Positions 17,962 through 26,357 of a DNA stretch of 64,000 nucleotides are shown piece by piece (positions within the stretch are counted from its first letter, which is position 1; each line of letters begins with the position of its first letter). The position numbers and the translations under genes were made by a program. The notes beneath the pieces are model-generated. The model worked only from the letters and a program-made list of their open reading frames with translations, had not been told where the DNA came from and made no database searches. The DNA is taken from assembly GCA_943789305.1 (NCBI GenBank), contig CALSTP010000001.1:224178-288177 (forward strand), given 5' to 3'. This stretch comes from an uncultured Flavobacteriaceae bacterium. GTDB taxonomy: Bacteria; Bacteroidota; Bacteroidia; Flavobacteriales; Flavobacteriaceae.

Positions 17962-17991
17962 TTGTAAATACGTTATTGTACACTACCTTTG
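17962..17991 (+). promoter_or_regulatory. Promoter of the ctaB-cox operon
   Basis: TTG at 17962-17964, a 19-nt spacer and TACCTTTG at 17984-17991 are a near-ideal Bacteroidota promoter. It overlaps an in-frame TTG at 17989, which excludes that codon as a start and supports the ATG at 18001. Confidence 0.7.
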
Positions 17992-18000
17992 CATCAGATT

Positions 18001-18909
18001 ATGGATGTAGAAAAAATTCGTTTGTCGCCTCTAGGGTCGACTTTTTCAATTTTTATAAACGACTTTAAAGAACTTACAAAAGTAAGGTTGGCAATCAGCG
18101 TTGTTTTTTCTTCTTTAGCAGGCTACTTTTTAGCTGCTGAAAACCCTTCAATTATAGATGTTGTTTTATTAGCTTTTGGAGGCTATTTCATGGTTGGAGC
18201 TTCTAATGCGTTTAATCAAATTTTAGAGAAGGATCTCGATGCATTGATGGACCGAACTAAAAACAGACCTCTACCATCAGGAAGAATGTCTGTTAAAACT
18301 GCATCAATAATTGCAACAATACTAACACTTCTTGGTTTATTAGTTTTATTTACAATAAATCTAAGAACGGCTTTCTTTGGGGGTATTTCTATCTTCTTGT
18401 ATGTTTGTGTCTACACCCCTCTGAAGACAAAAACCCCACTTGCTGTATTTGTAGGCGCTTTTCCTGGTGCTATCCCTTTTATGTTAGGTTGGGTAGCTTA
18501 TTCAAATCACTTTGGGATTGAACCAGGGGTTTTGTTTATGATACAGTTTTTTTGGCAGTTTCCCCATTTTTGGGCAATAGGATGGATGCTTGACAAGGAT
18601 TATAAACGAGCAGGTTTTAAAATGTTACCTACTGGAAAAGCAGATACTGCAACTGCTTTTCAAATTGTTTTTTATACACTTTGGATGATTTTGGTTTCAG
18701 TGCTTCCCGCGACTTCTTATACTGGAAGTTTTGATTTGAGTATTTCAGGAGCAGTAATTGTAGTAATTTTAGGATTTATTATGTTGTTTTTTGCTCTGGA
18801 GTTGATGGTTCAAAAGACTATTATTGCAGCAAAGAAGCTTATGTTTTCCAGTGTAGGATATATTACACTGATTCAAATAGTATATGTAATTGATAAAATT
18901 ATTAAGTAA
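18001..18909 (+). CDS. ctaB: Protoheme IX farnesyltransferase (heme O synthase)
   Basis: Integral membrane UbiA-family prenyltransferase that adds a farnesyl group to heme B to make heme O, the precursor of heme A for the oxidase. 302 residues from the ATG at 18001. The prenyl-diphosphate/Mg-binding motif NAFNQILEKDLDALMDRT and RPLPSG lie near residues 64-92, and the second Asp-rich region (LDKDYKRAG) near 196. About eight to nine hydrophobic helices are present. The stop is immediately followed by the ATG of the first subunit III-like gene, so this heads an oxidase operon. The start is fixed by the promoter just upstream. Confidence 0.95.
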   Translation: MDVEKIRLSPLGSTFSIFINDFKELTKVRLAISVVFSSLAGYFLAAENPSIIDVVLLAFGGYFMVGASNAFNQILEKDLDALMDRTKNRPLPSGRMSVKTASIIATILTLLGLLVLFTINLRTAFFGGISIFLYVCVYTPLKTKTPLAVFVGAFPGAIPFMLGWVAYSNHFGIEPGVLFMIQFFWQFPHFWAIGWMLDKDYKRAGFKMLPTGKADTATAFQIVFYTLWMILVSVLPATSYTGSFDLSISGAVIVVILGFIMLFFALELMVQKTIIAAKKLMFSSVGYITLIQIVYVIDKIIK

Positions 18910-19482
18910 ATGGAAAGTACCCTTCAAGAAAAAAATACTAAGGCAAAAAAAATGATGCTTTGGTTTGCTATGATAAGCATGACAATGACTTTTGCAGGCC
19001 TGACAAGCGCATATGTGGTAAGTAGTTCAAGATCCGATTGGCTGGCTTCCTTTGAATTACCCTCTTTCTTTTCATACAGTACAATAGTTATTCTTTTGAG
19101 TAGTGTTACTTTTTTTCTGGGAAAGAAAGCTTTGAATCAGGGTAGAACAGTAATCCAAAAATTATTCCTTTGGGCAACTCTAGGGTTGGCATTAGTGTTT
19201 ATATATTTTCAGTTCAATGGTTTTTCACAGATCATTGAAAAGGGATATTACTTTACTGGTGCCGAGAGTTCAATAACTACATCATTTCTTTATGTTCTTG
19301 TTTTACTTCACCTTGTTCATGTTTTTGGAGGATTGATTGTTTTGTCGATTGTTATAATTAAAAGCTATAAAAATGCATATTCTGCCAGCCATAAATTAGG
19401 ATACGAATTAGCAGAATTATTTTGGCACTTTCTAGATTTTTTGTGGATATATTTATACGTTTTTGTGACACTAAATAATTAA
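18910..19482 (+). CDS. Cytochrome c oxidase subunit III-like protein (short form)
   Basis: A 190-residue heme-copper oxidase subunit III family protein with five predicted membrane helices (about residues 15-38, 50-70, 83-101, 118-145, 160-188). Diagnostic segments are the late LLHLVHVFGGLIVL and LAELFWHFLDFLWIYLY, matching the HxxH..G and E..YWHFVD..W core of subunit III. It directly abuts the heme O synthase gene (no intergenic base) and precedes a second, longer subunit III gene. Having two tandem subunit III-type proteins is common in Flavobacteriia. The exact division of labour between them is unknown. Confidence 0.88.
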   Translation: MESTLQEKNTKAKKMMLWFAMISMTMTFAGLTSAYVVSSSRSDWLASFELPSFFSYSTIVILLSSVTFFLGKKALNQGRTVIQKLFLWATLGLALVFIYFQFNGFSQIIEKGYYFTGAESSITTSFLYVLVLLHLVHVFGGLIVLSIVIIKSYKNAYSASHKLGYELAELFWHFLDFLWIYLYVFVTLNN

Positions 19483-19523
19483 AAAAAACACTATTTTTGT
19501 AAAATTAAAATTTAGCACCTTTT

Positions 19524-20504
19524 ATGGAAGTTACAGCAAATAGCATAAGTGAGGAGACCAATATTTGGAGTGGAGGAAACAAACCACTAGGTTCCAGTTA
19601 CGGAAAATTGATGATGTGGTTTTTCATCGTTTCTGATGCTTTAACTTTCACAGGCTTTTTAGTTGCTTATGGTTTTTCAAGATTTAAAAACATTGATTCA
19701 TGGCCAATAGCCGATGAGGTTTTCACTCACTTTCCATTTTTGCATGGAGTAGATGCTCCTATGTACTATGTTGCTTTGATGACATTTATTCTTATTTTTT
19801 CATCAGTAACAATGGTTCTAGCTGTTGATGCTGGCCATCATATGAACAAGGCGAAAGTTACCTTCTATATGCTACTTACTATTATTGGTGGAGCAATTTT
19901 TGTTGGATCTCAAGCTTGGGAATGGAAAAATTTCATCAAAGGTGAGTACGGAGCATTAGAAACTAGAGGCGGTCAAATTTTACAGTTTATGGATGCAGAA
20001 ACTGGTAAACGTGTTGCCCTAGAAGCTTTTGCTGCAAATATTGATTCCCCTAGAACTACACACGAAAACAGTAATGGAATCTGGTTTCTTTCAGAAACAT
20101 CGTTGCCTAGTTATAGTGTTGAAGAGGTTGCAGCAGGTTTTGCAGCAAACGAAAATCTGGTTGTTAAGAGCGAAAAAATTGATGAATTGGGTCACAAAAT
20201 AATCCTTTCAAGAGAAGAATCTTTACGAAAAGTAAATGAAGCCATAAACGTAGTAGAGGGTGCAAACTTAGTTCACAATGAATACGGGAATCGCCTTTTT
20301 GCAGATTTCTTTTTCTTCATAACAGGTTTTCATGGTTTTCACGTTTTCTCGGGAGTTGTAATAAACATCATTATTTTTTTCAATGTAATCATGGGGACTT
20401 ATGAGAAAAGAGGACACTATGAAATGGTTGAAAAAGTAGGACTTTATTGGCACTTTGTAGATTTAGTGTGGGTATTTGTATTTACCTTTTTCTATCTCGT
20501 TTAA
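19524..20504 (+). CDS. Cytochrome c oxidase subunit III (long form with internal insertion)
   Basis: A 326-residue subunit III. Helices 1-3 are at about residues 28-52, 70-94 and 112-135; helices 4-5 at about 255-285 and 302-325 carry FFFITGFHGFHVFSGV and GLYWHFVDLVWVFVF. Between helices 3 and 4 there is a hydrophilic insertion of roughly 110 residues (about 140-250) absent from the 190-residue neighbour. Its N-terminal part (GSQAWEWKNFI) is the normal subunit III motif. A TATTTTTG box at 19492-19499 precedes the gene, but no good -33 element is seen. Subunit IV follows. Confidence 0.93.
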   Translation: MEVTANSISEETNIWSGGNKPLGSSYGKLMMWFFIVSDALTFTGFLVAYGFSRFKNIDSWPIADEVFTHFPFLHGVDAPMYYVALMTFILIFSSVTMVLAVDAGHHMNKAKVTFYMLLTIIGGAIFVGSQAWEWKNFIKGEYGALETRGGQILQFMDAETGKRVALEAFAANIDSPRTTHENSNGIWFLSETSLPSYSVEEVAAGFAANENLVVKSEKIDELGHKIILSREESLRKVNEAINVVEGANLVHNEYGNRLFADFFFFITGFHGFHVFSGVVINIIIFFNVIMGTYEKRGHYEMVEKVGLYWHFVDLVWVFVFTFFYLV

Positions 20505-20524
20505 CTAACATAATAAATATCATC

Positions 20525-20908
20525 ATGGCACACGATACAGAAAATTTAGCCATTTTTAGAGGATTGTTAAAATTCAAATCAAACGTTCAGAAAATTTGGG
20601 GTGTTTTGATTTTCCTTTCCATAGTTACAACAATTGAGGTTGTGCTTGGAATTTTGAAGCCTCAAAGTCTTATGAGTATGTTTTTAGGTATGAAGATACT
20701 GAATTGGATATTCATAATATTAACTATTGTAAAAGCGTATTATATTGCTTGGGACTTTATGCACATTCGTGATGAGAAAGGAAGTCTTAAGGGGTCAATT
20801 GTACTTCCATTAGTTGTCTTACTTCCCTACTTGTGTTTTATCCTTTTGTTAGAAGCAGATTATATTTATGAAGTAATGCGTACTGGATTTGTAAGTTGGA
20901 ACTTCTAA
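20525..20908 (+). CDS. Cytochrome c oxidase subunit IV-like membrane protein
   Basis: A 127-residue protein with three hydrophobic helices (about residues 24-44, 53-75, 92-112), fitting the bacterial cytochrome c oxidase subunit IV (CtaF/CoxD-like) family, which helps assemble the oxidase. Typical features are the NVQKIWGVLIFLSIVTTIEV start of helix 1 and the AYYIAWDFMHIRDEK loop. The ATG at 20525 is chosen; the frame is open further upstream, but that region is the end of the subunit III gene. It lies 20 bases after subunit III and 9 bases before the next gene, within one operon. Confidence 0.88.
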   Translation: MAHDTENLAIFRGLLKFKSNVQKIWGVLIFLSIVTTIEVVLGILKPQSLMSMFLGMKILNWIFIILTIVKAYYIAWDFMHIRDEKGSLKGSIVLPLVVLLPYLCFILLLEADYIYEVMRTGFVSWNF

Positions 20909-20917
20909 TCTGAGACG

Positions 20918-21583
20918 ATGATTAGTAATGATTTTAAAAAGTACATAGTTCTGGGAATACTTTTTGTATTTCCGATAGTCATATATTTATTTTTCGCTTC
21001 TGGGATTAATAATTTTGCAAAACTGCCAGTTCTAACAGAAAATCTTCCTGAAATATCCTCTTGGAGTTCATTGCGTGGAGACACCGTTCAATTTAAAGAT
21101 CGAATTACCATTATTGGTTTTTGGGGGAACGATATCGAAAATAAAAAAGGGGATGCTTTTAATCTAAATCAAAAAATTTACAAACGTTTTTATCAGTTTA
21201 AAGATTTTCAGTTTGTATTTGCTGTTGAAGATGGACGACAAAAACAAATAAAAACTGTTTTATCAGAAATACAAGAAGGAGTGGGTACCAATATGGTAAA
21301 ATGGAATTTTATTTTTGGATCTCCAAATCAAATTAAAACCTTATTTGAAACCTTTAATTCGGATGTAACTTTATCACCTCAACAAAGTACATCAACTGTT
21401 TTCATCGTAGATCGCTCTCTTAAATTGAGAGGCCGTGATGATGATGAAGATGTTGGAACTCTTTTTGGCTATGATGCTTCTTCGGTAGCAGAATTGAATA
21501 ATAAGATGACCGATGACGTCAAAGTTATTCTTGCAGAATACCGATTGGCGCTTAAAAAAAACAACACAAAACGACAAAAATAA
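20918..21583 (+). CDS. SCO-like membrane-anchored protein lacking copper ligands (degenerate paralogue)
   Basis: A 221-residue protein with one N-terminal membrane helix (about 10-28) and a soluble domain facing out of the cytoplasm. Its segments line up by eye with the SCO protein encoded next door: ITIIGFWGND against VYVVEFFFTR, VKWNFIFGSP against NDFWNFLTGT, and STVFIVDRSLKLRGR against YFALIDKNGFIRSR. The CxxxC copper/redox motif and the distal histidine of SCO are missing, so it is unlikely to bind copper the same way. It is located between oxidase subunit IV and SCO, which suggests an accessory role in oxidase maturation. The homology is my reading, not a computed alignment. Confidence 0.75.
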   Translation: MISNDFKKYIVLGILFVFPIVIYLFFASGINNFAKLPVLTENLPEISSWSSLRGDTVQFKDRITIIGFWGNDIENKKGDAFNLNQKIYKRFYQFKDFQFVFAVEDGRQKQIKTVLSEIQEGVGTNMVKWNFIFGSPNQIKTLFETFNSDVTLSPQQSTSTVFIVDRSLKLRGRDDDEDVGTLFGYDASSVAELNNKMTDDVKVILAEYRLALKKNNTKRQK

Positions 21584-21637: not shown

Positions 21638-22342
21638 ATGAAAAAAACCTCTTATTTTGGACTATTTGTTATTGTTTTTATTTTCGCTGTAATTGTAGTT
21701 CCAAAAATTTTCAATCGATTAACAAAGGGAGCTACTGTTGAGAGCAGTCGTTCTGTAAAACCAGGGTTTAAAGCTCTTGACTTTATCAAGATAAATGGGA
21801 ACTCTAAAAAGGTGCCGGATTTTCTTTTTTTAAATCAAGACAGTTTATATATTTCAAATGAAGATTACTTAGGTAAAGTTTATGTAGTTGAATTTTTCTT
21901 TACCCGCTGTCCATCTATTTGCCCAATCATGAATAAAAATATGAAAATCCTGAATGATGCCTTTGGTGAAAAAGAGAATTTCGGAATAGCTTCTTTCAGT
22001 ATCGATCCTGATTACGATACTCCTTCAACATTAAAAAAGTATGCTGAATCCTTTGTAAGAGCAAATGATTTTTGGAATTTCTTAACTGGAACTAAAACAA
22101 CCGTTTACGATCTAGCCAATAAAGGATTTAATATTTTTGCTGAAATTAATCCTGCAATGGCTGGAGGTTTTGAACATCAAGGTTATTTTGCTTTAATTGA
22201 TAAAAATGGATTTATTCGATCTCGCAAAGATTCTTATGGTAATCCAATTGTCTATTATTCTGGACTTGATCAAGAAGATGTTGAAGAAGAGGGTGTAGAA
22301 ATGCTTTTAACAGACATCAAACTATTATTAAATGAAAATTAA
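21638..22342 (+). CDS. SCO1/SenC-family copper chaperone
   Basis: Membrane-anchored, periplasm-facing thioredoxin-fold protein that delivers copper to the CuA site of cytochrome c oxidase. 234 residues. One N-terminal helix (about 6-24), then the SCO domain with C91-x3-C95 in FFFTRCPSICPIM and the third copper ligand H180 in GGFEHQGYFALID. Position and spacing fit the family. It is followed three bases later by the DUF420 gene and lies directly after a Cys-less SCO-like paralogue. Confidence 0.95.
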   Translation: MKKTSYFGLFVIVFIFAVIVVPKIFNRLTKGATVESSRSVKPGFKALDFIKINGNSKKVPDFLFLNQDSLYISNEDYLGKVYVVEFFFTRCPSICPIMNKNMKILNDAFGEKENFGIASFSIDPDYDTPSTLKKYAESFVRANDFWNFLTGTKTTVYDLANKGFNIFAEINPAMAGGFEHQGYFALIDKNGFIRSRKDSYGNPIVYYSGLDQEDVEEEGVEMLLTDIKLLLNEN

Positions 22343-22345
22343 TTT

Positions 22346-22873
22346 ATGAGTGCAAAAGGGTCTACTTTAAAATATAAAAATTGGATTATTCTAATTTCTG
22401 TCGCTATTCCAGTCGTAGTTGCTGTTCTATTTCGTATTCGCATAGAAAACGTTAAGCCACTTTCTTTTTTACCACCAATTTACACTGCTGTAAATGCGTA
22501 TACAGCAATTATTCTTCTTTGTGCATTATGGGCAATTAAGAATCGTAAAATTAATTTACACGAGCAATTTATGAAAACAGCCATTGGGCTTTCCTTATCT
22601 TTTTTGATCATGTATGTTGCATACCATTTAACCTCAGATCCTACTCCTTTTGGAGGGGAAGGATGGGTTAAAAATGTTTATTACTTTATTTTAATTTCAC
22701 ATATCATATTATCAATTACTATAATTCCCTTGGTTTTAATTACTTATGTTAGGGGGATTTCACAACAATTTACCCAACATAGAAAAATTGCACGCATAAC
22801 CTTTCCAATTTGGTTATACGTAACCATAACGGGAGTAATTGTATATTTAATGATATCTCCTTATTACAACTAA
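22346..22873 (+). CDS. DUF420 family membrane protein
   Basis: A 175-residue inner-membrane protein with about five hydrophobic segments (roughly residues 12-30, 42-65, 75-95, 110-132, 150-172). The conserved histidines typical of DUF420 are seen: NLHEQFMKTA, YVAYHLTSDP, ISHIILSI and the HRKIARITFPIWLYV motif. DUF420 proteins are regularly found with SCO and oxidase genes and are thought to help oxidase or heme/copper assembly; the activity is not established. It starts three bases after SCO and is followed six bases later by the small CxxC protein. Confidence 0.88.
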   Translation: MSAKGSTLKYKNWIILISVAIPVVVAVLFRIRIENVKPLSFLPPIYTAVNAYTAIILLCALWAIKNRKINLHEQFMKTAIGLSLSFLIMYVAYHLTSDPTPFGGEGWVKNVYYFILISHIILSITIIPLVLITYVRGISQQFTQHRKIARITFPIWLYVTITGVIVYLMISPYYN

Positions 22874-22879
22874 GACCGA

Positions 22880-23095
22880 ATGGTTAAAAAAGTCATTTAT
22901 CTAAGTTTAGTCTTTTTTTTTCTCGCATCTATTGATGCAGAGGCTCAGTGCGCAATGTGTAGAGCGGTTTTAGAATCCGAAGAAGGACAACAAACAGCTA
23001 AAGGGATTAATGATGGAATTATCTATTTAATGGCAATTCCATATGTTTTGGTTGGGATTGTTGGCTTTGCAGTTTTTAGGCTTTTAAAAAAATGA
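22880..23095 (+). CDS. Small exported CxxC membrane protein of the oxidase operon
   Basis: A 71-residue protein. Residues 1-22 look like a signal peptide (VIYLSLVFFFLASIDAEAQ), followed by CAMC (residues 23-26), a short conserved-looking helix ESEEGQQTAKGINDGIIYL, and a membrane helix near residues 47-67 ending FRLLKK. If the signal is cleaved after AQ, the mature protein would begin with the Cys pair. I do not recognise a named family. The position, six bases after DUF420 at the end of the SCO cluster, suggests a role in copper or heme delivery. That is inference from context and the CxxC motif only. Confidence 0.78.
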   Translation: MVKKVIYLSLVFFFLASIDAEAQCAMCRAVLESEEGQQTAKGINDGIIYLMAIPYVLVGIVGFAVFRLLKK

Positions 23096-23163: not shown

Positions 23164-23865
23164 ATGATAAAAATTACTAACCTCCACAAATCCTATAAAA
23201 TGGGTAATTCATCTCTTCATGTTCTTAAAGGCATTGACTTTGAGGTAGAAGAGGGGGAATTAGTTGCGATTATGGGTTCTTCGGGTTCTGGAAAATCTAC
23301 ACTTCTCAATATACTAGGAATGTTAGATGTTTTAGATGAAGGTTCTTATTTGCTTGATGATGTTTTAATTAAAGATTTAGATGAAACAAAAGCTGCTAAG
23401 TACCGCAACCAATTTTTAGGTTTTGTTTTTCAGTCTTTTAATCTGATTAATTACAAATCAGCACTCGAAAATGTATCTCTTCCGCTATACTATCAGGGCG
23501 TAGCTCGAAAAGAGCGTCAAGAACAAGCATTGGAATATTTGACAAGAGTTGGCTTAGCAGACTGGGCAACACATTTGCCAAGTGAGCTTTCTGGTGGGCA
23601 AAAACAACGTGTAGCAATTGCTCGAGCTATGGCTTCAAAACCTAAAGTACTTCTAGCAGATGAACCAACAGGAGCTTTAGACACAAAAACATCTTACGAA
23701 GTAATGGATCTGATTCAAAAAATTAATGAAGAAGGAAATACAATTTTGGTAGTTACCCACGAAGAGGACATTGCTAAAATGTGTAAACGAATTGTTAAGC
23801 TTAAGGATGGAGTTATTGTTGAAGACAGTAAAGTTAAACAAGTTTTAGCAGCTGATTATGTTTAA
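23164..23865 (+). CDS. ABC transporter ATP-binding protein, MacB/LolD-type
   Basis: ATPase of a MacB/FtsE-like exporter, 233 residues. Walker A is GSSGSGKST (about residues 38-46), the Q-loop is in FVFQSFNLI, the signature LSGGQKQR is at about 141-148, Walker B is [11 protein letters not shown] (about 163-173), and the H-loop is VVTHEED (about 198-204). It is the first gene of a tight five-gene set: the two permease genes overlap in sequence by eight bases each, followed by HlyD and TolC proteins. This implies a tripartite efflux system. The substrate is unknown. An ECF-like promoter upstream suggests induction by envelope stress. Confidence 0.95.
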
Positions 23866-25087
23866 CAGAGATCGTTGGCAAGAAATATTTGAAACCATTC
23901 GAAAGAATAAACTTAGAACATTCCTTTCAGGTTTTACCGTTGCACTAGGTATTTTTATTTTCATCATTTTATTTGGTTTTGGTAATGGATTGAAAAATCA
24001 ATTTCAAGAATTTTTCTTAGATGATGCAACCAATGTAATTTTTTTATTCCCAGGTAAGACTTCTAAACCTTATAATGGATTTAAATCAAACAGAAGAATA
24101 GAGTTTAAGAACGACGATTTGTCGGATATTAAAGAGCAATTTCCTTTTTTTTTAGAATACATAACCCCAAGAATTTCTAGAGGAGCAGTGGTCAAATACA
24201 AAAACGAGTTTGACAATTATACCACCCGTGCAGTTGGTCCTGCACATCAATTTGCAGAAAAAACAATATTGATGAAAGGGAGGTTTATAAATCAAGACGA
24301 TATCAAGAATAAAACTAAATATGCTGTTATTGGTCGACTGGTTGCACAAGATCTATTTAATCAAGAAGATCCACTAGGTAAATTCATAGACATAGGGAAT
24401 AGTGTTTTTAAAGTTGTTGGAGTTTTTCAAGACGATGGCGGAGACCGAGAAGAACGCTACATATACATTCCATATACTACTAGACAATTACTAGAAAGAA
24501 GTAATGATAAACTGGATCAAATTATATTGGCTTTCAAACCTCAAATTGGTCATTCTGGTTCTGTTTTGTTTGAAAGAAAATTGCGCGAATTCTTAAAAAA
24601 GAAAAAATCGATTGACCCATCTGATCCAAATGGAATCTACATCAGAAATGTTGCAGACCAATTGAAACAAAACCAACAATTTGCAAACGTACTCCAGTTA
24701 ATCGTAACTTTTGTAGGACTAGGGACTTTGATTGCGGGTATCATAGGGATATCAAACATCATGGTATTTGTGGTGAAAGAAAGAACTAAAGAATTAGGGA
24801 TTAGAAAAGCTTTAGGAGCTACTCCAAAAGCAGTAATTCGAATGATCCTTCAAGAATCTATTTTTATCACTACAATTTCAGGGTATATTGGATTGTTTAT
24901 TGGAATTTTTGTTCTTAAAAACATTGGTGTTTCCTTACAAGATTATTTTATTAAAAACCCATACATAGACACATCAACTGCTTTATTTTCAACCATGATA
25001 CTTATTTTATTTGGAGGTATCGCAGGCTATATTCCAGCCAAACGTGCCGCACAAATCAAACCTATAATAGCGTTAAGAGATGAATAG
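23858..25087 (+). CDS. ABC transporter permease, MacB/FtsX-type (first of a pair)
   Basis: A 409-residue MacB-like permease. The family topology is visible: one N-terminal helix (about residues 19-42, LRTFLSGFTVALGIFIFIIL), a large periplasmic domain (about 45-280), and three C-terminal helices (about 285-310, 335-358, 370-395) with the conserved VKERTKELGIRKALGATPK segment contacting the ATPase. It starts inside the ATPase gene (8-bp overlap) and its end overlaps the second permease by 8 bp. It is a clear paralogue of that second permease, so the transporter core is probably a heterodimer. Confidence 0.93.
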   Translation: MFNRDRWQEIFETIRKNKLRTFLSGFTVALGIFIFIILFGFGNGLKNQFQEFFLDDATNVIFLFPGKTSKPYNGFKSNRRIEFKNDDLSDIKEQFPFFLEYITPRISRGAVVKYKNEFDNYTTRAVGPAHQFAEKTILMKGRFINQDDIKNKTKYAVIGRLVAQDLFNQEDPLGKFIDIGNSVFKVVGVFQDDGGDREERYIYIPYTTRQLLERSNDKLDQIILAFKPQIGHSGSVLFERKLREFLKKKKSIDPSDPNGIYIRNVADQLKQNQQFANVLQLIVTFVGLGTLIAGIIGISNIMVFVVKERTKELGIRKALGATPKAVIRMILQESIFITTISGYIGLFIGIFVLKNIGVSLQDYFIKNPYIDTSTALFSTMILILFGGIAGYIPAKRAAQIKPIIALRDE

Positions 25088-26357
25088 TTTTAAAATTATT
25101 TTCGATCGAGATACTTGGCAAGAAATTTTTGGCTCCATCCAAAAAAACAAAGTTCGAACTATAATTACGGTGGTTGGAGTATTGTGGGGTATTTTTATTT
25201 ATATCGCCTTATCTGGTGCAGCAAAAGGATTGGACAATGGTTTTGAACGTGAATTTGAAAATGTTGCTATGAACTCTATGTTTGTATGGGCGCAAAGCAC
25301 TAGTATTCCGTATGATGGTTTTAAAACGGGTAGAAATCCACAGCTTAAAATTCAAGATGTTCAAACCCTACGCAACAATGTGCCTGAAATTCAATTTATT
25401 GCACCTAGAAATGCCAAAGGAGTATTCGATGGATCAGGTGGTTCTGAAATAGTTCGTGGATCCAAATCTGGAACTTATGCTATCTATGGGGATTTCCCAG
25501 AGTATACCAAAATTGCAACGAAAAAAATATACGACGGTGGACGATTCATCAATCAGGCTGATATTGATAACGAAAGAAAAGTTTGTGTTATAGGTGAACG
25601 TACTCAAAAAGAATTGTTTGAAAAAGATGAAAAACCCGTAGGAAAATTCATACGTGTAGATAATATCTATTTTCAAGTTATTGGCGTTCATAAATATATT
25701 CAAGGAGGAGGTTTTGAGAGTGATGGTGATGTATTTATTCCTTTTTCTACTTTTAAAAAATTATACAATACAGGTGACAATGTAGATTGGTTCACTATTG
25801 CTGCATACGACGATGCTGATGTAATAGTAGTAGAGGAACAAGTAAAACAAACTTTGAAGCGAATACACCGTGTATCTCCAAAAGATGAACGCGCTTTTGG
25901 GTCGTTTAACTTAGGAGAAATATTTGGAAAGATTATGGGTTTTGCAAAGGGGATGACCTTTTTATCGCTCATCGTAGGAATTGCCACAATCATCGCAGGA
26001 GTAATTGGAATTGGAAACATCCTATTGATTTCGGTTAAAGAAAGAACAAAAGAATTGGGAATTCGACGTGCATTAGGGGCTACTCCAGGAGAAGTTAAGG
26101 CCCAAATAATTTTAGAATCCGTATTTCTAACTTTTATAGCAGGTGTTTTTGGAATTATACTAGGGGCATTTGTTTTGTCAGGAATTGATATGGCAACAGC
26201 GAACTTAGACAATTTTCCATATACCAACCCTACCGTTCCCATTTCATTTGTACTAGGGGCTTTATTAATTATGATAACCCTAGGAACTTTGATCGGATTA
26301 ATTCCTGCACAAAGAGCAGTAAGCATAAAACCAATAGACGCATTAAGAGAAGAATAA
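25080..26357 (+). CDS. ABC transporter permease, MacB/FtsX-type (second of a pair)
   Basis: A 425-residue paralogue of the preceding permease with the same layout: N-terminal DRDTWQEIFGSIQKNKVRT leading into helix 1 (about residues 24-45), a periplasmic domain (about 50-300), and three C-terminal helices with VKERTKELGIRRALGATPG. Both permeases open with a near-identical DRxxWQEIF motif, evidence of duplication. It overlaps the first permease by 8 bp and is followed after 31 bases by the HlyD-type adaptor. Substrate unknown. Confidence 0.93.
   Translation: MNSFKIIFDRDTWQEIFGSIQKNKVRTIITVVGVLWGIFIYIALSGAAKGLDNGFEREFENVAMNSMFVWAQSTSIPYDGFKTGRNPQLKIQDVQTLRNNVPEIQFIAPRNAKGVFDGSGGSEIVRGSKSGTYAIYGDFPEYTKIATKKIYDGGRFINQADIDNERKVCVIGERTQKELFEKDEKPVGKFIRVDNIYFQVIGVHKYIQGGGFESDGDVFIPFSTFKKLYNTGDNVDWFTIAAYDDADVIVVEEQVKQTLKRIHRVSPKDERAFGSFNLGEIFGKIMGFAKGMTFLSLIVGIATIIAGVIGIGNILLISVKERTKELGIRRALGATPGEVKAQIILESVFLTFIAGVFGIILGAFVLSGIDMATANLDNFPYTNPTVPISFVLGALLIMITLGTLIGLIPAQRAVSIKPIDALREE

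Follow-up and report, generated by a model that had tools for sequence, protein, structure and literature searches.

A small CxxC membrane protein that accompanies DUF420/CtaM across Bacteroidota, with a possible role in Cu(I) handling during heme-copper oxidase assembly

Among the closest described systems is the oxidase assembly factor CtaM (DUF420), which is required for the aa3/caa3 oxidase; in B. subtilis its absence does not prevent hemes a and a3 from forming, and its suggested role is at a late step, for example in CuB assembly (PMC9145763, from the part of the article available to us). Excerpts of a 2026 study report that CtaM mutants are copper-sensitive, and propose that the protein exports copper or helps to export it, perhaps to Sco (PMC13344008). 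The same portions of both articles describe the copper route to CuB as unclear and the role of CtaM as 'unassigned' (PMC9145763, PMC13344008). We analysed a small CxxC protein encoded immediately behind CtaM in an uncultured Flavobacteriaceae bacterium. A search of open-licence papers, covering titles and the beginnings of abstracts, returned no description of its family, and the protein is unmentioned in the accessible parts of work on alternative complex III (PMC8552683, PMC5928083) and on heme A oxidases (PMC8239418).

The gene lies within a 64,000-nucleotide window (the whole stretch of DNA that was analysed) in an oxidase gene cluster read from the forward strand. COX1 of the source genome is located at G000:C1:223519-224955, its tail falling at about positions 1-780 of the window, and the genes leading up to the small CxxC gene are as follows.

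17989..18909, + strand, CtaB, heme O synthase of the UbiA family (PF01040, E 4.1e-56; CtaB by context)
18910..19482, + strand, second subunit-III-type protein (PF00510, E 4.9e-12)
19524..20504, + strand, cytochrome c oxidase subunit III (PF00510, E 9.8e-13)
20525..20908, + strand, cytochrome c oxidase subunit IV (PF03626, E 6.6e-14)
20918..21583, + strand, ScoL, a Cys-less SCO/thioredoxin-fold protein (no Pfam family; fold match to ResA and Sco)
21638..22342, + strand, SCO1/SenC protein with CPSIC and a distal His (PF02630, E 4.9e-27; alignment)
22346..22873, + strand, DUF420/CtaM-type oxidase assembly membrane protein (PF04238, E 3.8e-46)

CoxIII is the family matched by each of the adjacent genes at 18910-20504, and in the second the match falls into two separate stretches. 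ScoL, encoded between the CoxIV and SCO1 genes, is without copper ligands: CxxxC was found in none of 133 ScoL relatives versus 181 of 187 SCO1 open reading frames in the fetched loci. Its structural model (pLDDT 87) matches ResA (PDB 1su9) and Sco (1xzo and 4hde) at E 5e-7 to 1e-6, and a conserved, ligand-free SCO partner is of interest in its own right.

Six bases separate the end of DUF420 (22873) from the small CxxC gene, which is present in a single copy in its own genome and has the following features.

22880..23095, + strand, small CxxC membrane protein gene (71 aa; ATG at 22880, stop ending at 23095)
22880..22945, + strand, predicted signal peptide, residues 1-22, cleavage AEA|QC (read by eye)
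22949..22960, + strand, CAMC motif, residues 24-27, at the start of the predicted mature chain
23015..23086, + strand, membrane-spanning helix at roughly residues 46-69, carrying the conserved YLM..PY (AlphaFold2 model and alignment; boundaries by eye)

The translation of 22880..23095 is MVKKVIYLSLVFFFLASIDAEAQCAMCRAVLESEEGQQTAKGINDGIIYLMAIPYVLVGIVGFAVFRLLKK. Read by eye, the 71 residues comprise a Lys-rich start, a hydrophobic core, a cleavage site, CAMC, a charged stretch and a single transmembrane helix ending in KK; the open reading frame translation thus confirms the length, signal peptide, CAMC at the cleavage site and one membrane helix proposed in an earlier note on this DNA. An AlphaFold2 model computed with 114 relatives as input places helices at residues 2-16, 26-31 and 34-70 (mean pLDDT 82), with low pLDDT (59-71) around CxxC. 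That 22880-23095 is a real gene follows from its presence in near genomes (50 of 60, its own included, by single-sequence search) and from its pN/pS, which in comparisons with six near-relative loci (two of them yielding identical values) was 0.16-0.27 for the whole gene and 0.08-0.14 for the last 48 codons (the mature part). An ABC-transporter ATPase gene begins 68 bases further on along the same strand, with no terminator-like site found in between, and the small CxxC gene therefore need not be the last of the operon, which the same note had taken it to close. MacB-like ABC transporter genes occupy window positions 23164-26357 on the strand of the oxidase operon. An ATPase gene was present no more than 1.5 kb downstream in 68 of the 76 related loci with enough flank, implying that the shared neighbourhood reaches beyond the oxidase genes.

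No Pfam or NCBIfam model fits the window protein, whose sole Pfam match was TRIQK at 0.043; this agrees with the expectation that annotation pipelines would call it hypothetical. For its relatives (n = 114) no fitting Pfam or NCBIfam model stood among the 25 most often matched of 66 families, and CcmH was not one of those 25. Matches to PDB sequences were weak and only zinc-finger-like (best E 0.012), none of them convincing, and a search of plasmids gave zero matches. The protein belongs to an uncharacterised family found across Bacteroidota and is not peculiar to the source genome. The family may extend past this phylum, to which our searches were confined; similar CPxC proteins are presumably encoded in Planctomycetes and Verrucomicrobia.

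Alignments were built in steps of 15, 25 and 114 sequences, the last (A3) thinned by identity. Across the 114 non-redundant relatives in A3, C24 and C27 are the sole invariant columns, and every one of the 204 loci matched by a profile has CxxC (some of these loci repeat a genome). The middle pair varies (AM, SM, PN, PA, SI, PM), with Met at the third position (CxMC) in 83 of 114 relatives and another residue in 31, and P54 is kept in 110. The residue preceding the first Cys is Q in 93, A in 18, S in two and G in one, and the residue before that is mostly A (88 of 114), so that the Cys pair sits right where the predicted mature chain begins. A lipoprotein would carry Cys at +1 of a lipobox; in the window protein Q precedes the Cys, and a lipobox-like sequence occurs in six of the 114 relatives, all from a divergent group outside the window's class. 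An additional Cys is found in one relative, and in five a His lies no more than 30 residues from the first Cys; the position directly after the second Cys holds R, K, T, S, A or Q, never His. The conserved soft-ligand (Cys/Met) site expected of a Cu(I) chaperone is thus present, as an invariant CxxC usually joined by Met.

We assessed how the family is distributed in a phylum sample of 296 Bacteroidota genomes. A first profile (A1) matched 72 genomes at E 0.01, and a second (A2) matched 102 at E 0.05, of which the 88 at E <1e-3 were counted as carriers, leaving out matches above that value (G296, G273 and weaker). Two of the seven A1 matches outside the window's class (G259 C81, E 0.003; G221 C15, E 0.005) were rejected, being without the Cys pair there and looking by eye like an outer-membrane and a sorting-domain protein. 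Carriers comprised 65 genomes of the window's class and 23 outside it. DUF420 was detected in 149 of the 296 genomes and the COX2 family in 220, and DUF420 was present in all 88 carriers: within the window's class the 65 genomes with DUF420 all carry the small protein and the remaining eight have neither, and outside it all 23 carriers have DUF420. None of the 147 genomes lacking DUF420 was a carrier, including 72 with a COX2-family subunit (Fisher p 5e-35, with shared descent ignored). The A2 seeds included sequences from G144 and G158 chosen for their position beside DUF420, and those two genomes are therefore not independent evidence. An oxidase-biogenesis factor should occur only with oxidase and assembly genes, and 87 of the 88 carriers also had a COX2-family match (G111 had none at E 1e-3). 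Conversely, 61 of the 149 DUF420 genomes were without the small protein, and CtaM in general thus does not need it.

A heuristic scan for a signal peptide, CxxC and transmembrane helix covered 30 loci of oxidase genomes: L219, 28 DUF420/COX2 loci of non-carriers, and L164, the DUF420 locus of a carrier (G248) whose own small gene lies elsewhere. L219, in genome G063, was the only locus to yield a candidate, so absence near DUF420/COX2 genes looks real within the heuristic at the loci scanned. This divergent candidate (L219:8253-8498, - strand; ACPVCFGDP...) has a signal peptide and transmembrane helix and comes after a CoxIV-like gene, and its genome has DUF420; it scored E 6e-4 in a small local search and E 0.018 genome-wide, and G063 was not counted as a carrier.

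Relatives were encoded by 470 candidate stretches of genome contigs, 80 of which were kept as close-relative loci; 79 of these have DUF420 directly upstream together with SCO1, and one (L067) has neither. In the phylum sample the small gene lies beside oxidase or oxidase-assembly genes in 75 of 88 carriers and is unlinked in 13. It adjoins DUF420 in all 30 carriers of the window's family, is linked in 22 of 35 carriers from the rest of the class (in G138 at 7 kb, in G122 convergently), and lies beside DUF420, SCO1 or a CoxIII-type gene in all 23 carriers outside the class. Sixteen of those 23 were new genome-wide A2 matches obtained regardless of position, neither seeds nor earlier finds, and all 16 were linked, which is the best evidence that the divergent relationship is true. 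Ten of the 13 unlinked carriers are all of the sampled members of a single family (f18); in the f18 loci examined (L193, L187) the small gene sits beside TypA and MeaB-like GTPase genes, named by eye. Genome G268 has two copies (L209, L210): DUF420 and SCO1 precede one of them, and a CoxIII-type gene precedes the other. The earlier note had proposed a candidate oxidase-maturation factor tightly linked to SCO and DUF420, to be abandoned if orthologues lost the cysteines or proved unlinked to oxidase genes; the cysteines are kept throughout and linkage holds in most carriers, supporting that proposal with the activity itself a prediction.

The screen for other copper-insertion factors covered Cox11, PCuAC and Caa3_CtaG, and divergent members would escape it. 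In 80 of the 88 carriers, Cox11 was found in two, PCuAC in four and Caa3_CtaG over the cut-off in one (plus one below it), suggesting that most carriers lack the usual factors for copper insertion. Among the 61 DUF420 non-carriers, PCuAC was found in 37 and Cox11 over the cut-off in none. PCuAC thus appeared in four of 80 carriers versus 37 of 61 DUF420 non-carriers (p 1.6e-13), a contrast that is weak because it comes mainly from one family (f37, 35 of 35) and becomes 2 of 16 versus 3 of 14 when counted by family. Replacement of PCuAC was for this reason rejected as the main argument.

The association with oxidases is strong. We consider it about an even call that the small protein is an uncharacterised, Bacteroidota-wide CuA/heme-copper oxidase factor acting with DUF420/CtaM, and usually SCO, through a putative Cu(I) relay. 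Three features are together best read in this way: a roughly 20-residue tail that contains Cys-x-Met-Cys but no His, the tie to CtaM and, in most, SCO, and the scarcity of known copper inserters. Met in the loop with no His would suit a soft Cu(I) site. The signal peptide would be cut just before the Cys pair, leaving an outward-facing tail starting Q-C-x-M-C and anchored by the one membrane helix; the Lys residues that open the signal peptide, like those at the C-terminus, suggest an N-out, C-in orientation after cleavage. The Cys pair, with Met where present, would bind Cu(I) arriving at the outer face via CtaM or another route and hand it to SCO or directly to CuA/CuB in an oxidase still under assembly, and the conserved YLM..PY helix face may dock the protein to CtaM or an oxidase subunit. 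More tentatively, the protein may be a third, unrecognised component of the CtaM/SCO copper-insertion pathway that replaces Cox11, PCuAC and Caa3_CtaG across most aerobic Bacteroidota; in that scheme CtaM would export copper, the small protein would capture it as Cu(I) on the surface of the membrane, and the recipient would be SCO or the CuB pocket. A phylum-wide CtaM partner with two invariant Cys, in bacteria from which the known copper inserters are mostly absent, would offer a concrete, easily mutated handle on the question of how CuB obtains its copper, and a way to probe a gene family without a Pfam or NCBIfam model. Against a Cu(I) relay, Met is not invariant, 13 of 88 carriers are unlinked, and a two-Cys tail without a fold could equally be a thiol-disulfide element.

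That last reading, in which the Cys pair would alternate between its dithiol and disulfide states and, carrying no metal itself, would hold the cysteines of the SCO CxxxC or of CuA in the reduced form that metal loading requires, seems to us rather unlikely. An invariant CxxC gene adjoining SCO, tolerance of middle-residue variation as in redox motifs, and the Cys-less, SCO-like thioredoxin-fold protein of the same operon would all suit it. However, the small protein has no thioredoxin fold, its ectodomain is short and modelled with low confidence, the dominance of Met at the third position suggests a metal more than a redox preference, and it would need an electron donor of its own, none being seen in the operon. 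Less probable still is that the protein belongs to the aa3 oxidase, or to its supercomplex with alternative complex III, as a small structural subunit whose Cys pair forms a structural disulfide. A subunit would fit the single helix with its conserved face and the position of the gene next to structural genes of the oxidase, which in some lineages (L210, L218) is immediately behind Cox3-type genes; and since no Bacteroidota aa3 oxidase could be recognised among the PDB chains matching subunit III of the window, no solved structure excludes it; yet none of the 72 genomes with a COX2-family subunit and no DUF420 carries the protein, which therefore tracks the assembly factor rather than the enzyme, and no PDB chain matched convincingly. 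The AlphaFold2 model is too simple to discriminate between Cu(I) relay, thiol partner and subunit.

A heme-handling role, as a CcmH-like factor or a heme-transfer peptide, is very improbable. CtaB is encoded in the operon, and CxxC after a signal peptide with a transmembrane helix presumably recalls CcmH; against this, CxxCH occurs in none of the 114 relatives and nearby His is rare, making c-type heme unlikely, and with it the heme-binding option that had been suggested for the Cys pair, and no CcmH model appeared among the best 25 of the 66 matched Pfam families. The formation of hemes a and a3 without CtaM in B. subtilis also speaks against it, on the available text (PMC9145763). A functionally unrelated membrane protein that is just co-transcribed with the oxidase genes would suit the downstream ABC transporter genes and the 13 carriers with the gene away from oxidase genes, but is scarcely credible given that DUF420 co-occurs in every carrier, also where unlinked.

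With the Cu(I) relay as the preferred reading, the small protein can be set beside known systems. It shares operon and genomes with CtaM/DUF420 (PF04238), a late-acting assembly factor and proposed copper exporter in the portions of the reports available (PMC9145763, PMC13344008). Unlike the polytopic CtaM, it is a separate, one-helix protein missing from many DUF420 genomes. Like SCO1/SenC (PF02630), it is membrane-anchored and predicted to present an outward-facing Cys pair, and it is encoded in the same operon. SCO has CxxxC within a thioredoxin fold and a distal His, whereas the small protein, at 71 aa and with no Pfam match to that family, has CxxC without His and about 20 residues outside the membrane. 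PCuAC (PF04314), Cox11 (PF04442), Caa3_CtaG (PF09678) and CtaK/YtkA would share its niche, copper delivery to CuA or CuB, with no sequence relation seen, and the first three are absent from nearly all carriers tested. CcmH of System I cytochrome c maturation similarly combines a membrane helix with a Cys pair close to the N-terminus of the mature protein. The small protein differs from CcmH in having no three-helix domain and in being linked to oxidase genes in most carriers.
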